A DNA stretch of 64,000 nt from Flavobacterium orientale (GTDB lineage: Bacteria; Bacteroidota; Bacteroidia; Flavobacteriales; Flavobacteriaceae). Shown here one piece after another: positions 55,903-64,000 of the stretch. A program made the position numbers and the translations under genes. The number at the start of each line of letters is the position of its first letter. The first letter of the stretch is position 1. The DNA lies in contig NZ_BMFG01000009.1 of NCBI RefSeq assembly GCF_014638005.1, forward strand, positions 1 through 64,000. Direction: 5' to 3'. The notes under the pieces were generated by a model. That model saw only the letters and a program-made list of their open reading frames with translations. It was not told where the DNA came from and searched no databases.

Positions 55903-58900
55903 ATGCGTAAATTAATAACTCTTTGTTTCCTTTTTGTTTTCACTTTTACATTTAGTCAAAATTTTGATCAACAATGGAAGGAAGTTTACAAATATGAGTT
56001 AGACGGAAAAATACAATCTGCACAAAAAGAAGTAGAAGAGATTTATAAAAAAGCTAAAAAGAAAAAAGATGAAGTGCAAATCGTCAAGTGTTTTTTCTAT
56101 TTGTCAAAATTTGAAGAGGTTTTTGATGAAAAAGCTCAATTAACCATTATTTCAAATTTAAAAAAAGAAATTAAGGAAGCTGAGCCGATTTCAAAAGCAC
56201 TATTAAATTATATTTACGCAACTATTTTACAGAATTACTATAATCGATATTCTTATAACATTGATAAAAGAACAGAGCTAGAGTCTCAAAAAAATTTAGA
56301 TTTTTTAACTTGGACTTCACTTGACTTTGATACTGAAATTGAAAAGGCAATGAAGAATTCGTTACAGAATGAAAAATTGCTTAGAACCATTTCTATAAAA
56401 TCTCTCAAAGAAATATTTGAAATCTCTCCAAATGTAGATGCTAAAAATTATAGTTTATATGATTTTTTAGTTGAAAAAAGTATTGTTCATTACAAACCAA
56501 AAGTAAACCGTCGGGAAGTTAAAAATAACAAATATGAATTTGACTTATTTGAAAATTTATACGCAGAATCCAATACTTTCATCAATTATAAGTGGTCTTC
56601 TTTGACTGATGAAAATTTAAAAAAACTAGTTGCAATTCTACAAGAAAACGAACTATTTTACTTATCAAACAACAAAGAAAAAAATGATTTTGCTTATTAT
56701 GAACGCTTAAAATTTGCTAACTCAATATATAGCGATAATTCTACTTTTGTTAATAAAATAACCCAACTTGAAAACAAAACGACTAGCTCTTTTTTAAAAC
56801 AATCTTTAAGAGTTGAACGTATAAAATATTATATCAGTCAAACTTCAAAACAAAACAATGTCAACAATTATAATGAAGCACTCCAATTAATTGACACTGT
56901 TTTAAAAACAAAAATAAATTTCAATGCTTTGGCGGAAGCAGAAGCATATCAAAATCAAATTCTTGGTAAATCATTATCTATAAATCTTCAGAAAACTATT
57001 TATCCTAATCAAAATAACCGTGCCTTTGCAAACTTTAAAAATGTTGATTCGGTTAAAATTAGTTATTACCGCTTTCCTGTAAAAAATAATTATTTATTAG
57101 ATAATTCTCTTTTTTATGATCGTAAAAAAAATGATCTGGCAAAAAGAGATTCTTTGGTTTTAAATTTTAAATTTCAAAACAAACCAATAAAAAGCCATAC
57201 GGTAAAATTACCTTCTAAAGGTGATTATTCTAATTATTCCACTGAAATTCTTTTAGAAAAAATGGATGTTGGAAATTATTTGGTTTTTATGGAAACACTA
57301 AATGATACAATTGAAAAGAAAATCGCTTTTGCTTATGAAAACTTACAAGTAACTAACTTTTCTATTATAGAAGACAATAATGAAAAACTCGATTTCATTA
57401 CTGTTTTAGATCGAAAAACTGGTAAACCAATAGAAAATGTGAGTATTAAAAACGAAGATCATACAGTGAATACAAATAAAGAAGGGAAGGCACAATTTAA
57501 AAAGAAAAAATATATTTCACATAATTTTTACGACAGCGATATTCTAATAATTAAGAATAATGATACTTTACTCAAAAAACACAACCAAACCTTTATTTAT
57601 GATGATGATGATGATGATGATGATGACTATGAAAATTTTTACGCTAAAGTCATGGTTTATTTTGACCGTGCCATTTATCGTCCAGGGCAAAAAGTCTTCT
57701 ATAAAGGGGTTTTGATTCAAAACAAAGACAATATAAAAAGTGTCGTACCCTATGTGAGTGTTAACGTTAAAATTAGTGATGTAAATGATACAGTTTTAAA
57801 AGAATTTGATACTCAAACCAATGAATTTGGTTCATTTTCAGGAGAATTTGATATTCCAAGAAACACATTAACTGGTCGGTTTTACATTACTATAGATGAA
57901 CCTAATCAGGCGGAAGTTGATACAAAATATTATGACAAAAAAGAAGAAGAACACAAATTTTGGGATAACGTAGATTATAATGAAGAAGATTTTTATTTTA
58001 CAGTAGAAGAGTATAAGCGACCCACATTTGAAGTAAAATTTGATGAAATCAAAGAGAATTACACTATTGGTGATGTCATTAAAATTAGAGGAAACGCAAA
58101 AGCTTTAGCTGGAAACAATTTAACAAATGCAAAAGTTACTTATACAGTTTCTAAAAATACAACCTCTCATGAAAACTTTTATTCAAATGATGATGATTAT
58201 ATAATTGCAGAAACAATTACAGATAATAATGGAAATTTCAATATTCATTTTCCTGCTATTGAAGAGGGTATTTCTAATGATAGCATACAATTAATCAGAT
58301 ACACAATAAAAGCTGATATTACGGACATTCAGGGCGAAACCAGAACAGCAACTAAATATCTAAAAGTTGGTAAAGAAATGCTTGAATTAAAAATGCTACT
58401 AGATCGTAATTTGTTTAAAGAAGACAAAAATGAAGTATTCATAAAAACCACAACTTTAAACAATAATCCTATTGATGTAAAAGGAGAAATTAAAATTTAT
58501 GAATTTCAAAAAAAGAGTTATTTAAAGAATCGTCTTTTCGGGTTTCCGGAAATTCAAACACTTAGTCGAAATGAGTTTGAGCAACTTTTTCCACACGAAC
58601 CTTTTGAACAATCAGATAATGAAGTAACAGAAGTTTTTGTAAAATCATTTTTATTTGACACAAAAAACAATAAAGAAATTTCATTAGATTTTTTAAAAAC
58701 TTTTAAAAACGGAAATTATAAAATAACAGGAGAAGCTTATGATCAAAAAAACAATCTCATTAAAACTGAAAATTATTTCCAATTAGATTCTAAAGTGAAC
58801 CCTTACTCAAAAGACGAACTTTTTGTACTAAAAGATATCTCAAAAAAAAATGAACCTTTTTTTGAGATAGAGATTCATTCCGTTATACCGGATTTATGGA

Positions 58901-61900
58901 TAACTTCTAGATTTTATGACGAAAACAAAGTGTTGGAAAATGAACAAGTGATTCAATTAAAAAATGGAAAAGCAACTTTTAAGTTCAACAAAAAAGCAAA
59001 ATACGATGCGGACATACATTTTCATTTTTCAACGGTATGGGAAAACACCACAGATGTAAAAACACATTCAGTAAAAAAAGAAATAATTGAAACCAAATTA
59101 AATTTTGAAATTCTGAGTCTGAGGAATAAAATTGAACCCGGTAGTCTTGAAAATTGGTCTTTTAAAATTATTGATCAAAAATTAGAGTCTGAAGTTTTGG
59201 CAAGTATGTATGATAGTTCTTTGGATCAATTTGCAACACAAAACTGGTCAAACATTAGTTTTTATAAATATTTTGACCAACCAACTTATCCAAATTTGAA
59301 TTTTGAAAATATTATTTACAAAACTTTTGAAAATTTTAAGAGAGACAATAAATTTCATTATTATTACATTCAGAGCCCTCAAATTAATTGGTTTGGTTTT
59401 AACTTCAATGACCCAAAAAACACTCATGTTCTTAAAAAGTACATGGATAAAATCAGACCTTTATCAGAAATTCCTAAAAATGCAACATATGTAGATGGGG
59501 TTGTTATAGATGATAAAGGACTACCGCTTCCAGGTGCATCTATTGTTATAAAAGGGACAAAACGTGGGACTTCCTCCGATTTTGATGGCAAATTTAGCAT
59601 TGAGGCGGTTAAAGGCGAAGTTTTAGCAGTTTATTATGTAGGAATGAAGTCTGAAGTTGTTAAAGTCGAAAAGAACAATGGTTATGAAATTATTTTAGAA
59701 GAAGAAGATAATACTTTAGAAGAAGTGGTAGTGGCTGGATATCGAACAATGTCCAAAGCGACTCTTACATCTTCAATTTCTACTATCACTGCTGAATCAA
59801 TTGAGAGTTTACCAAATTATCATGTTCTTTCAACTTTGCAAGGTCAAATAGCAGGAGTAAACATAGCAACTTTTTCAGGTCAACCAGGTTCAAACAACCT
59901 AATAGTAACAATTCGTGGTGTAGGTTCGATAGACAATTCATCTGCTCCGCTCTACGTTATTGATGGCGTGCCTTTAAACCAAGAATCCTTTAGAAATATA
60001 AATGCTAATGATATCGAATCAGTTTCTGTTTTAAAAGATGCCGCTGCCACTGCAATTTATGGCAATCGCGGAACAAATGGAGTTATTATTATTAACACTA
60101 AAAGTGCTTTAAAAGAACTTGTTCAAGTAAAAACCCGCACAAATTTTAATGAAACAGCCTTCTTTTATCCGCATCTAAAAACAGATAGCGATGGAAAATT
60201 TAGTTTCAATTTTACGAATCCTGAATCATTAACAAGTTGGAAATTGCGTTTGTATGGTCATAATAAAAAAGCAGAAGCAGGCTATTTTGAATCCACTATT
60301 ATTTCGCAAAAAGATGTGATGGTTCAAACTAATATGCCACGATTTGTAAGAGAAAAAGATACAATTTCTATTTCGGCTAAAGTAGTGAATATGACTAATG
60401 AAACTAAATCCGGAATTGCTATGCTAATGCTATTCGATGCATCAAATATGAAAGCAGTAGATAGCATCACATTAAACACCTCTAACCTACGAAATTTCGA
60501 TTGCAAACCAAAAGAAAGTGTTCCGGTTACTTGGAAAATTACAATTCCGGAAGGCTTGCAAGGTTTACAATATAAAATTGTAGCAAAATCAGGTAATTTT
60601 TCAGATGGTGAAGAAAATATTCTTCCTGTTTTAAGTAACAAAATTCTAATAACTGAAAGCATTCCAATTTGGGTAAAAGGAAATTCTAAAAAAGAATATG
60701 TTTTTGAAAACTTGAAAAACAATTCTTCTGAAACTCTAAAAAACCATCAATTTACGTTGGAATATACTTCTAATCCAACTTGGTTGGCGTTACAGTCGCT
60801 TCCCTATTTGATGGAATTTCAACATGAATGTGCTGAGCAGACTTTTTCAAGATATTATGGAAATTTTATAGCTACAGAAATCATCAACAGCAACCCAAAA
60901 ATTGCTACTTTATTTGAATCTTGGAAAAACAATCCAACATCGGTTTCTAAAATAAATCAAAATGAAGAACTAAAATCCATTGTATTAAATGAAACTCCTT
61001 GGCTTTTGGATGCTGTAAGTGAGGAACTGAAAAACAAACGATTGGCTTTGCTTATGGATTTGAATACAATGAAAGAATTACAAGAAAGCACATTTAAAAA
61101 GTTGGAAGAAAAACAATTGTCTTCCGGAGCATTTTCTTGGTTTGATGGTGGTGAAGAAAATACTTTTATAACTCAACATATTGTTGCCGGGTTAGGACAT
61201 TTAGGAAAGTTATTCCCTGAAAGTAATTCAAAATTTGAAAAGATAACTTCAAAAGCGATTCCACATCTTGATGCTAATTTCATTAAAAACAGCAGTTTAA
61301 AAAATGACCGCTTAAATTATTATACCTATTCTAATTTACATTATTTATATACTCGAAGTTTTTATCTTGAAAAAATGCCTGTTTCTAAGAAAATTGACTC
61401 CATTATTACTATCCAAAAAATTGAATTTAAAGCGAATTGGTTGCAGTATTCGCTATACAAAAAAGCTCTTTTGGCTTTAACGATGAATCGTTTTGGAGAC
61501 AAAAAATTTGCTGAAAAAATCATCACTAACTTAAAAGAAACGGTCGCAAGAAATGATGATTTTGGAATGTATTGGGTTGAAAATAAAAACGGATATTATT
61601 GGTACCAATCTGCAATAGAAACACAAGCATTACTAATTGAAGCTTTTGCAGAAATTGAAAAAGACAAAAAATATGTTGATGAAATGAAAGTTTGGTTGCT
61701 CAAACAGAAACAATTGCAAAATTGGCCAACTACAAAAGCTACAACAGAAGCTGTTTATGCTTTATTGTTACAAGGAAGCGATTGGGCAAATAGCATAGAC
61801 AACACAAAATTCAAAATTGGTGACGAAAAAATATTGACCAAAAAATTATCCGAAAAAGATAAAGAAGCTGAAACCGGTTACATCAAAATGAATTGGAATT

Positions 61901-62442
61901 CAGATGAGATTACAAAAGAAATGGGATCTGTTTCCGTTGAAAATAATTCGTCTGTAGCGGGTTTTGGAGGTTTATATTGGCAATATTTTGAGAGTTTGGA
62001 AAACATCAAATCAGACAGTACCGCAGTTTTATCCATTACTAAAAATTTATATAAAAAAATAAAATCTTCTGATGGAGATAAATTAGTTGAATTAAACAAA
62101 GAAACATTGAAACCAGGTGATTTAATTACGATTAGATTAATTTTAAAAACTGAAAACGATCTGGAATTTGTTCACTTAAAAGATTTGAGAGCGTCGAGTT
62201 TTGAACCTGTTGATGTTATTTCAAAATATGAAAGAAAAGATGGTTTACGTTTTTACAGAAGTACAAAAGATGTTGCAACACATTTTTTCTTTGACACAAT
62301 TAAGAAAGGAACTTATGTTTTAGAATATGATGTTCGCATCAATCATTCCGGTAGTTTTGTTGATGGAATTTCAACGTTGCAAAGTATGTATGCTCCCGAA
62401 TTTTCAGCTCATTCCATCAGTACAAAAGTAAAAATAGAATAA
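55903..62442 (+). CDS. Giant alpha-2-macroglobulin with inserted TonB/SusC plug
   Basis: 2179 residues. Signal peptide MRKLITLCFLFVFTFTFSQ, no lipobox. MG domains cover about 350-1190, with an MG2 domain near 585-690 (VYFDRAIYRPGQKVFYKGVL). Nine Asp residues at 567-575 come from a GAT repeat. Residues 1197-1275 form a carboxypeptidase-regulatory fold (YVDGVVIDDKGLPLPGASIV), followed by a SusC-type TonB plug (about 1276-1402; TLQGQIAGVNIATFSGQPGS, APLYVIDGVPLNQ). The A2M domain starts near 1410 (RTNFNETAFFYPHLK). The thioester motif CAEQ is C1643-Q1646, then a complement-like helical domain. No barrel follows the plug. It likely traps proteases in the periplasm or on the surface. Confidence 0.9.
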   Translation: MRKLITLCFLFVFTFTFSQNFDQQWKEVYKYELDGKIQSAQKEVEEIYKKAKKKKDEVQIVKCFFYLSKFEEVFDEKAQLTIISNLKKEIKEAEPISKALLNYIYATILQNYYNRYSYNIDKRTELESQKNLDFLTWTSLDFDTEIEKAMKNSLQNEKLLRTISIKSLKEIFEISPNVDAKNYSLYDFLVEKSIVHYKPKVNRREVKNNKYEFDLFENLYAESNTFINYKWSSLTDENLKKLVAILQENELFYLSNNKEKNDFAYYERLKFANSIYSDNSTFVNKITQLENKTTSSFLKQSLRVERIKYYISQTSKQNNVNNYNEALQLIDTVLKTKINFNALAEAEAYQNQILGKSLSINLQKTIYPNQNNRAFANFKNVDSVKISYYRFPVKNNYLLDNSLFYDRKKNDLAKRDSLVLNFKFQNKPIKSHTVKLPSKGDYSNYSTEILLEKMDVGNYLVFMETLNDTIEKKIAFAYENLQVTNFSIIEDNNEKLDFITVLDRKTGKPIENVSIKNEDHTVNTNKEGKAQFKKKKYISHNFYDSDILIIKNNDTLLKKHNQTFIYDDDDDDDDDYENFYAKVMVYFDRAIYRPGQKVFYKGVLIQNKDNIKSVVPYVSVNVKISDVNDTVLKEFDTQTNEFGSFSGEFDIPRNTLTGRFYITIDEPNQAEVDTKYYDKKEEEHKFWDNVDYNEEDFYFTVEEYKRPTFEVKFDEIKENYTIGDVIKIRGNAKALAGNNLTNAKVTYTVSKNTTSHENFYSNDDDYIIAETITDNNGNFNIHFPAIEEGISNDSIQLIRYTIKADITDIQGETRTATKYLKVGKEMLELKMLLDRNLFKEDKNEVFIKTTTLNNNPIDVKGEIKIYEFQKKSYLKNRLFGFPEIQTLSRNEFEQLFPHEPFEQSDNEVTEVFVKSFLFDTKNNKEISLDFLKTFKNGNYKITGEAYDQKNNLIKTENYFQLDSKVNPYSKDELFVLKDISKKNEPFFEIEIHSVIPDLWITSRFYDENKVLENEQVIQLKNGKATFKFNKKAKYDADIHFHFSTVWENTTDVKTHSVKKEIIETKLNFEILSLRNKIEPGSLENWSFKIIDQKLESEVLASMYDSSLDQFATQNWSNISFYKYFDQPTYPNLNFENIIYKTFENFKRDNKFHYYYIQSPQINWFGFNFNDPKNTHVLKKYMDKIRPLSEIPKNATYVDGVVIDDKGLPLPGASIVIKGTKRGTSSDFDGKFSIEAVKGEVLAVYYVGMKSEVVKVEKNNGYEIILEEEDNTLEEVVVAGYRTMSKATLTSSISTITAESIESLPNYHVLSTLQGQIAGVNIATFSGQPGSNNLIVTIRGVGSIDNSSAPLYVIDGVPLNQESFRNINANDIESVSVLKDAAATAIYGNRGTNGVIIINTKSALKELVQVKTRTNFNETAFFYPHLKTDSDGKFSFNFTNPESLTSWKLRLYGHNKKAEAGYFESTIISQKDVMVQTNMPRFVREKDTISISAKVVNMTNETKSGIAMLMLFDASNMKAVDSITLNTSNLRNFDCKPKESVPVTWKITIPEGLQGLQYKIVAKSGNFSDGEENILPVLSNKILITESIPIWVKGNSKKEYVFENLKNNSSETLKNHQFTLEYTSNPTWLALQSLPYLMEFQHECAEQTFSRYYGNFIATEIINSNPKIATLFESWKNNPTSVSKINQNEELKSIVLNETPWLLDAVSEELKNKRLALLMDLNTMKELQESTFKKLEEKQLSSGAFSWFDGGEENTFITQHIVAGLGHLGKLFPESNSKFEKITSKAIPHLDANFIKNSSLKNDRLNYYTYSNLHYLYTRSFYLEKMPVSKKIDSIITIQKIEFKANWLQYSLYKKALLALTMNRFGDKKFAEKIITNLKETVARNDDFGMYWVENKNGYYWYQSAIETQALLIEAFAEIEKDKKYVDEMKVWLLKQKQLQNWPTTKATTEAVYALLLQGSDWANSIDNTKFKIGDEKILTKKLSEKDKEAETGYIKMNWNSDEITKEMGSVSVENNSSVAGFGGLYWQYFESLENIKSDSTAVLSITKNLYKKIKSSDGDKLVELNKETLKPGDLITIRLILKTENDLEFVHLKDLRASSFEPVDVISKYERKDGLRFYRSTKDVATHFFFDTIKKGTYVLEYDVRINHSGSFVDGISTLQSMYAPEFSAHSISTKVKIE
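57598..57630 (+). repeat. GAT trinucleotide repeat coding poly-Asp
   Basis: Eight GAT codons and one GAC encode nine aspartates within the alpha-2-macroglobulin gene. The in-frame trinucleotide tract may vary in length between strains. Confidence 0.9.
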
Positions 62443-62516: not shown

Positions 62517-64000
62517 TTATTTAACGATAGTTAACTCGTCAATAATATGTTTGGCTCCCGCATATTTATCGATGATAAATAATACGAAACGAATATCTAC
62601 ATTGATTGTTCTTTGTAACTTGTCATCAAAAATAACGTCTCCGGCCATCGCTTCGATGTTTCCGTCAAACGCTAATCCAATCAATTCTCCTTTTCCATTC
62701 AACACTGGAGAACCTGAATTTCCACCGGTAATATCATTATCTGTCAAAAAGTTAACCGGCATATAACCCGCTTTATCTGCATATTGACCAAAATCTTTTT
62801 TGTTATACAAATCAATTAAAGGTTGTGACAAATCAAATTCAGGATCACCTGCTTTATGCTTTTTCACCATTCCGGCTAAAGTTGTATAATTATTGATTTT
62901 CGCATCGTTTCTTTTATCTGCAGGTAATGCACGAACTTTTCCATAGGTTAAACGCAACGTTGAATTGGCATCCGGATATAAAATCGGACTTAATTTTGAC
63001 TCTTGTAAACCTGCTACTAATTTTCTGAAACCTGATTGATATTTATCTTCTGCAGCTTTTAACTCGTCTGATTTTTTATTAAAATGATCAATCAAATCTG
63101 AAGACAATTTGTATAATGGATCATTTGAAACTAACTCTGCATTAGGTAACTCTAAAAATGCCAAAAGTCTTTCTTTTGAAGTAAACAAACTCAAATCAAT
63201 TACGTTTGATGCATAACTGTTAAAATCAGTTTTGCTATCCACCATAGCCTGAATACTTGGTGCTAAAGCATAACCTTTAGCTTTTTCTGCATACAAAGCT
63301 AATTGACCCGCTAATACATCTTTTTCAAGTGGTAAATAGATAGTTTCAAAAGTTCCTTCAATCATTTCAATAAAACGAGGTTTCATTTGAGCTTTTTGAT
63401 TGGCATCTGCTTTAGAATAATTTACCAATTGATTTCCTAAACGAGCCGGCAACGTTCCAAATGAAGTTCCTCTTAATAAAGTATTCAAATAGTTATCATG
63501 TTTTGCCTTTTCATTTGTTAAAGCATAATAAGCGTTGATATCTTTAATAACTGTTCCGTATTGAGCTTTATTATTTTTGTTGTTTGCCCATTTGTCAAAT
63601 TTCTTTTCAACTTTTCTTTTAGAATCTGCTGTTTTAAATTGAGAAAGAGCATCAATCATCCCCTGTCTGTTTTTCCAATAATTGGCAATAGAAGCATATT
63701 TTGAAGCATAATTCAAACGAACTGCATCATCTTTATCCATGTGCACTTTCATTTTGTCCATTGACATTTTTGAACCTTCAACCCAAGCAGGATAAGCAAA
63801 CTTTACGTTTTGCTCTATTCCTTCAGCCGGCATCCAACGGTTTGTACGACCCGGATATCCTAAAATCATAGCAAAATCATTTTCTTGAACACCTTTCAAG
63901 CTAATTGGCAAATGGTGTTTTGGTTTTAACGGAACATTGTTTTCTGAATACTCAGCCGGATTTCCGTTAGCATCAGCATAAACTCTGAACAAAGCGAAAT
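62517..64000 (-). CDS. S46 family dipeptidyl-peptidase, C-terminal part
   Basis: At least 494 residues; the frame continues past the window edge, so the start and the catalytic His and Asp are outside. The text PAEGIEQNVKFAYPAWVEGS and the end TGGNSGSPVLNGKGELIGLA (catalytic serine in GNSGSP) fit the chymotrypsin-like S46 peptidases DPP7 and DPP11. These release dipeptides from peptides in the periplasm of Bacteroidota that live on protein. Which of the two it is cannot be judged. Convergent with the macroglobulin gene. Confidence 0.92.
   Translation of the reverse strand, partial: FALFRVYADANGNPAEYSENNVPLKPKHHLPISLKGVQENDFAMILGYPGRTNRWMPAEGIEQNVKFAYPAWVEGSKMSMDKMKVHMDKDDAVRLNYASKYASIANYWKNRQGMIDALSQFKTADSKRKVEKKFDKWANNKNNKAQYGTVIKDINAYYALTNEKAKHDNYLNTLLRGTSFGTLPARLGNQLVNYSKADANQKAQMKPRFIEMIEGTFETIYLPLEKDVLAGQLALYAEKAKGYALAPSIQAMVDSKTDFNSYASNVIDLSLFTSKERLLAFLELPNAELVSNDPLYKLSSDLIDHFNKKSDELKAAEDKYQSGFRKLVAGLQESKLSPILYPDANSTLRLTYGKVRALPADKRNDAKINNYTTLAGMVKKHKAGDPEFDLSQPLIDLYNKKDFGQYADKAGYMPVNFLTDNDITGGNSGSPVLNGKGELIGLAFDGNIEAMAGDVIFDDKLQRTINVDIRFVLFIIDKYAGAKHIIDELTIVK

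Follow-up and report, generated by a model that had tools for sequence, protein, structure and literature searches.

A Flavobacterium alpha-2-macroglobulin with a barrel-less SusC cassette in its bait position, and the repeated exchange of this cassette with SusC-type plugs

The window analysed here is a stretch of 64,000 nucleotides from Flavobacterium orientale (contig NZ_BMFG01000009.1, positions 1 to 64,000). On its forward strand, an open reading frame (ORF) at 55903-62442, open over 2179 codons from an ATG, encodes a protein of the alpha-2-macroglobulin (A2M) family. We found that the bait position of this protein is occupied by a cassette composed of the N-terminal extension, a TonB-box-like segment and the plug of a SusC-type transporter, without the outer-membrane barrel. 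Going beyond the original prediction, which a model had made from the letters of this DNA, sequence comparison indicates that the bait slot is highly variable among relatives, that the cassette is one of its states and that exchange between it and SusC-type plugs has taken place on several occasions. We tentatively suggest, with a confidence that falls somewhat short of an even chance, that the protein is a soluble periplasmic protease trap of the A2M type whose bait displays a TonB box, here within a full SusC-derived cassette. The features of the gene are listed below, with the evidence for each in brackets.

55903..62442, + strand: whole gene, A2M-family protein with SusC cassette, 2179 amino acids (ORF reading, Pfam)
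55903..55959, + strand: signal-peptide-like start, residues 1-19 (by eye; no lipobox)
57649..57906, + strand: MG2 domain, residues 583-668 (Pfam, over cut-off)
59206..59232, + strand: MYDSSLDQF, residues 1102-1110, conserved end of the macroglobulin (MG) domain that precedes the bait (sequence comparison)
59233..59490, + strand: variable bait linker, residues 1111-1196, with a conserved WFGF at 1163 and mostly low predicted local distance difference test (pLDDT) values at 1119-1169 (sequence, model)
59491..59712, + strand: SusC N-terminal extension (CarbopepD_reg_2), residues ~1197-1270 (Pfam; fold match 9hfj, Z 15.3)
59716..59742, + strand: TonB-box-like LEEVVVAGY, residues 1272-1280, inside the low-confidence linker 1271-1292 (motif, model)
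59755..60084, + strand: TonB-dependent receptor plug without barrel, residues 1285-1394 (Pfam, NCBIfam, phmmer)
60154..60408, + strand: A2M domain, residues 1418-1502 (Pfam; aligned to complement C3)
60829..60840, + strand: thioester motif CAEQ, residues 1643-1646 (motif; bond formation predicted)
62029..62400, + strand: bMG10 domain, residues 2043-2166 (Pfam, over cut-off)

The original prediction had described a frame of this length with MG domains and a CAEQ motif, enclosing a carboxypeptidase-regulatory fold and a SusC-like plug without barrel. Both parts of this description hold, the former by ORF reading, Pfam and motif and the latter by Pfam, TIGR04056, TIGR04057 and phmmer. On the reverse strand, the same register is packed with stops. 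The Pfam matches to CarbopepD_reg_2 (residues 1198-1277) and Plug (1285-1394) are both over cut-off, as is the NCBIfam SusC signature TIGR04057 (residues 1370-1400). For the SusC/RagA family TIGR04056, only positions 3-220 of 981 align, with residues 1197-1416 (E 3.5e-84, 283.8 bits), and the score lies below the whole-protein cut-off of 368, as expected because the barrel is missing. All 11 phmmer matches to PDB sequences are SusC, RagA or TonB-linked chains and fall within residues 1193-1427. No outer-membrane barrel was found after the plug: Pfam gives no barrel family, TIGR04056 stops at position 220 of 981 and the A2M domain comes next. The protein therefore has the extension, TonB box and plug of SusC/RagA proteins and lacks their barrel; it also has the MG2, A2M and bMG10 domains and, with CAEQ at 1643-1646, the CxEQ motif of type I A2Ms. 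Since the barrel was looked for and is absent, the window protein is, by its sequence, a macroglobulin by family and not a SusC.

The conserved end of the domain ahead of it, the bait-region domain of relatives and two structure models support the placement of the plug at the bait position, which was also proposed originally. Between MYDSSLDQF and the A2M domain (from 1418) lie successively the variable linker, the SusC extension, the TonB-box-like segment and the plug. The domain PF07703 (A2M_BRD) has no Pfam match in the window protein itself; it was matched in 28 of 36 short-bait relatives and, in the one displayed in full (L033), it stops just ahead of the bait. In the model of residues 861-1620 (mean pLDDT 71.1, predicted template modelling score 0.41), the MG domains and the extension mostly reach pLDDT 70-89 and the plug about 47-76, the plug fold being predicted with moderate confidence. 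The stretches 1119-1169 and 1271-1292 are disordered in this model, and the TonB-box-like motif sits in a low-confidence linker. The extension superposes on that of the SusC BT3090 (9hfj) with a Z of 15.3 and 1.2 A over 80 residues. The Foldseek matches include ECAM and human macroglobulin relatives; the 50 rows obtained with VIA-align contain extension and complement chains, with no SusC plug among them. The portion of the model that follows the plug aligns with complement C3 from about residue 730, and the C3 anaphylatoxin lies just before that residue, so that the cassette would stand at the place of the anaphylatoxin. In L033, the one short-bait relative modelled, the bait is predicted to be disordered (model residues 232-378, pLDDT <50). 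Two objections foreseen in the original prediction, that the segment might not be a plug or that the bait might lie elsewhere, were looked into and found no support at the level of sequence.

Relatives were collected with the C-terminal 763 residues of the window protein as query. The genomes with a match numbered 61 of 150 in the genus set, 147 of 249 in the family set, 47 of 196 in the order set and 158 of 295 in the class set. Some genomes belong to more than one set, and part of the weak matches represent other macroglobulins. From 218 loci, 204 distinct A2M ORFs were retained (genus 60, family 105, order 13, class 26), which are related and unevenly sampled, and counts among them are not independent. 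Their baits were compared with a profile built from 26 non-A2M plug sequences, not all of them from SusC: three belong to vWA proteins and some are other TonB-dependent plugs. Where the start motif was missing (eleven baits), the bait was taken as up to 330 residues ahead of the A2M domain. SusC-like sequence (profile score of at least 5 bits) is present in 141 of the 204 baits (genus 57/60, family 78/105, order 6/13, class 0/26), against 3 of 1020 shuffled baits and none of 204 control segments of equal length taken from these proteins themselves.

Bait states (among them full cassette, TonB box only and none) were assigned from matches of at least 3 bits. On this basis, 37 of the 60 genus-level A2Ms carry the extension, TonB box and plug at the same place, which excludes a one-off misassembly and leads us to reject a fused neighbour as well. 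At the family level, the commonest states are the TonB box only (25/105), none (22/105) and the full cassette (17/105), and a complete or near-complete plug was found in 21 of 105. SusC pieces are out of order in three baits. Two class-level TonB-box assignments score just 3.0 and 4.3 bits, and the class-level baits displayed resemble low-complexity sequence.

The phylogeny of the plugs indicates that exchange occurred repeatedly. When 55 A2M plugs and 61 other plugs (rows labelled susC, which include vWA and other TonB-dependent plugs) are placed in one tree, the A2M plugs do not form one clade: there are 12 label changes, at least 6 of them forced by supported branches, and a single origin appears in 0 of 200 bootstrap trees, in a bootstrap that is not fully settled. 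The window plug and a SusC from the same genome form a pair (support 95/87, 62% identity), as do the plug of genome G078 and its own SusC (100/99). Three relatives have C-terminal parts 74-84% identical to the window protein and plugs only about 46% identical. A single old insertion that merely decays is insufficient to explain how the A2M plugs interleave with the others. As judged from these alignments, the bait slot acquires SusC sequence repeatedly by recombination, and descent within the A2Ms fits the SusC-rich clade.

The SusC concerned is recognisable by its leader. In nine of ten genomes (the exception being G119), the best SusC-type match to the bait is a SusC with the leader MRSKFKW or a close variant, as compared among the sequences fetched per genome, whose inventories are partial (2 to 16 SusC each). 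Between the ten genomes, the leader and extension of this SusC are 38-79% identical and the barrel 22-84%; because the former are kept while the barrel varies, the locus looks like an allele-swapping one. A SusD gene follows the MRSKFKW SusC, and near-copies of the leader lie ~5 kb apart in G007, G020, G058 and G076. SusC/SusD loci whose leader is conserved and whose barrels differ greatly from species to species were noted at L331:6103-13900 (contig C1 of the window's genome), L332, L319 and L333-L338. In the window's genome, the pair is followed by a subtilase with a secretion tail. A subtilase-like gene belongs to the MRSKFKW SusC operon at four of nine loci (one by Pfam, three by motif); its presence in every such operon was rejected, as it is absent from the other five.

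This resemblance extends partially to co-variation within genomes. When 30 A2Ms were compared with 34 such SusC plugs, the plug of the own genome was the best match in 16 (one tie), whereas shuffled labels gave a mean of 1.1 and a maximum of 6 in 5000 permutations, which ignore relatedness. A partial Mantel test given body similarity, which corrects for that similarity alone, yielded r 0.38, with 0 of 5000 permutations as high (24 genomes). The bait is closer to the own SusC than to that of the nearest relative in 17 of 24 genomes and less close in 7. The excess similarity to the own SusC, computed over 21 A2Ms, peaks from the TonB box to the middle of the plug and is small across most of the extension.

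The copying does not appear to be recent. Agreement at fourfold sites is 0.37 between baits and their own SusC and 0.33 with the SusC of other genomes, with protein identity up to 74%, and the longest exact nucleotide run shared by bait and own SusC is 28; recent gene conversion is thus not supported. Fourfold sites of the A2M body, compared between the window and two relatives, are equally low (0.35 and 0.34), so the copying would date from roughly the origin of the species or earlier. Because fourfold sites are near background while protein identity reaches 74%, the cassette has been conserved since it was copied. An old copying followed by a sequence held since then argues against pure drift.

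A further indication of constraint comes from the 111 short baits (under 200 residues), 49 of which match the SusC profile. In these 49, the profile covers the TonB box in 31, the C-terminal signature in 5 and the first 32 positions in none. Among 41 rows re-anchored on the core [DE]EVVV, a procedure which favours core conservation, the residues E, V, V and V are found in 37, 32, 34 and 28 and the following G, Y and G in 26, 23 and 17. The median distance from the core to the bait end is 46 residues (quartiles 41-49), and an EVVVxGY-type pattern occurs 23 times in short baits and never in the remainder of the same proteins. By alignment, short baits retain the TonB-box core more often than any other piece. 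The original prediction had suggested that the protein could bind TonB and that a TonB box might precede the plug; LEEVVVAGY is present there (1272-1280), and TonB binding is a sensible idea because the box is the piece that relatives keep most often. Six TonB_C matches, one below cut-off, give several TonB candidates in the window's genome. In PMC7782687, the box DEVVVTG of the SusC Bt1763 is described as required for growth on levan.

On this basis, we infer TonB binding, localisation, cleavage and trapping as follows. The C-terminal domain of TonB would bind the TonB box of the bait, as it does with SusC, and this contact would keep the trap, which has no anchor of its own, at the TonB/SusC junction, in the path of proteases that enter the periplasm. 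A protease would then cut the flexible bait linker (about 1111-1196 or 1271-1292), freeing and collapsing the macroglobulin ring; the collapse would expose the CAEQ thioester and the protease would be captured, as in ECAM (PMC4498604). By resembling the resident SusC, the bait would remain adapted to the TonB used by this transporter.

Several observations weigh against this mechanism. In 14 of the 30 A2Ms, another SusC matches better than the own one. The MRSKFKW SusC was first noticed in ten genomes and the clean test is provided by the 19 other A2Ms, examined after the locus was noticed: the own SusC is best in 7 of these, all belonging to the 14 with a full cassette. In the SusC-rich clade, the G079 bait is 54-68% identical to five other A2M plugs versus at most 50% to any SusC of eight genomes (one query). 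Not every member of the family has the TonB box, since 53 of the 204 baits, including 24 of the 26 class-level ones, contain no SusC-like stretch. Moreover, 23 of 204 A2Ms lack CxEQ, and 7 of these retain the TonB-box pattern. A SusC locus with the exact leader pattern is present in 9 of 23 A2M-negative genomes, so the two genes are not interdependent, and a dependence of the SusC locus on the A2M is not supported. Finally, the match between bait and SusC continues into the plug, further than would be needed for TonB binding alone.

This last point would be explained if the slot were a decoy that mimics the exposed TonB-box/plug segment of the own SusC, so that an attacking protease cuts the macroglobulin and gets trapped, TonB binding being unnecessary. 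Such a decoy agrees with the location in a bait slot that is predicted to be disordered in L033, with the low model confidence of the linker around the TonB box and with the subtilase-like gene in the matching SusC operon at 4/9 loci. However, short baits retain the TonB-box core better than the remainder, and the subtilase has a secretion tail and is absent at 5/9 loci; we know of no protease with a preference for this segment of SusC, and we consider the decoy rather unlikely. It may also be that the bait tolerates nearly any sequence and that the numerous SusC genes recombine into it, leaving functionless remnants that drift. The great variation in bait length and content, the three baits whose SusC pieces are out of order, the many states in the family (none in 22/105) and the repetition of the exchange would all be accommodated in this way. 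Drift is nevertheless unlikely in our opinion, given the fourfold sites near background (0.37 versus 0.33) with protein identity up to 74%, which indicate conservation since copying, and a TonB-box core that has been retained more often than the SusC C-terminal signature and at a steady distance from the bait end (median 46, quartiles 41-49). Finally, as the original prediction had in part envisaged with a barrel, a SusD-like partner and a link to peptide uptake, the plug could dock in a SusC barrel or replace its plug, or bind SusD, and so couple capture to peptide uptake or reseal a plugless barrel. The likeness of the plug to the own SusC and the SusD gene that follows the matching SusC would be accounted for, and separately supplied plugs can work in FhuA. 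We nonetheless regard this as very improbable, because only 21 of 105 family-level A2Ms have a plug that is complete or nearly so and the SusC barrel already contains its own plug.

The trap addressed by TonB might also be part of a larger set. It is conceivable, although we are doubtful, that Flavobacteria hold a set of periplasmic barrel-less SusC mimics, to which a YfbK-like vWA membrane protein would belong, at a minimum, besides the A2M bait, and that the TonB box and plug of these mimics are kept matched to a main SusC of the genome. If true, the energy coupler of nutrient import would also position or arm an immune-type trap. The plug of the vWA protein fits the own MRSKFKW SusC best in three genomes, in two by a tiny margin. 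This membrane-anchored protein, with extension and plug and no barrel (by Pfam for L003), was observed at L003:958-3651 (contig C8 of the window's genome) and at L220 and L223 in two other genomes. Further Flavobacterium genomes encode other proteins (L284, L285 and L287) that carry the final portion of a SusC-type plug and, within the stretch read, no barrel.

Additional observations concern the gene and its surroundings. A 3-base repeat of 9.3 copies (window 57599-57626) encodes nine aspartates immediately before MG2 and could vary in length while staying in frame. Promoter-like sites number 44, compared with 37.1 (sd 7.6) in shuffles. An S46 peptidase gene (window 62517-63998, - strand), truncated by the window edge, converges on the A2M gene; such a neighbour was found at 32 of 50 genus loci and at 0 of 10 long family loci, which rules it out as a constant partner. 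A second, distant macroglobulin of ~1834 amino acids is encoded on contig C11 of the same genome, near 91389. Among relatives, the thioester cysteine is lost at L061-L072, L047, L050, L112 and L123, some of which retain the full plug cassette or the TonB box, and two or three A2M genes lie close together at L100 (G139), L150 (G343), L153 (G327) and L158 (G182).

No description of an A2M with a SusC plug was found in the open-licence literature, which was the scope of our search and does not extend to subscription journals. Bait regions are usually regarded as disordered and generic. Here, one lineage fills the bait from one other protein family, exchanges this filling repeatedly and mostly keeps the part that binds TonB in SusC. 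The old question of what bacterial macroglobulins protect, and of their location, can thus be put to direct test, and there is a hint that protease defence is connected with the import of nutrients.

Compared with known systems, the window protein shares with bacterial type I A2Ms (ECAM/YfhM, SaA2M) the MG domains, the bait slot before the A2M domain and CxEQ. According to PMC4498604, the bait of ECAM is largely disordered and the protein is attached to the inner membrane, its gene often sharing an operon with pbp1C; the present proteins differ by their neighbour genes, by a SusC cassette as bait and by the absence of a lipobox pattern (0/114 in the N-termini of relatives). MagD, a type II A2M without CxEQ which still traps protease according to PMC5764988, resembles some plug-bearing relatives without this motif (4 of 54 full cassettes) and differs from the window protein, which has CAEQ. 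The MRSKFKW SusC locus resembles ragAB of P. gingivalis, presented in PMC11817032 as one locus with differing SusC/D-type alleles behind a conserved N-terminus; this likeness concerns the SusC partner and not the macroglobulin. With SusC/RagA transporters, the shared elements are the N-terminal extension, TonB box, plug and SusC signature, whereas the piece described here is barrel-less and inserted in a macroglobulin. Complement C3 and C5 likewise have a folded domain at the corresponding place, the anaphylatoxin, which is unrelated to the plug.

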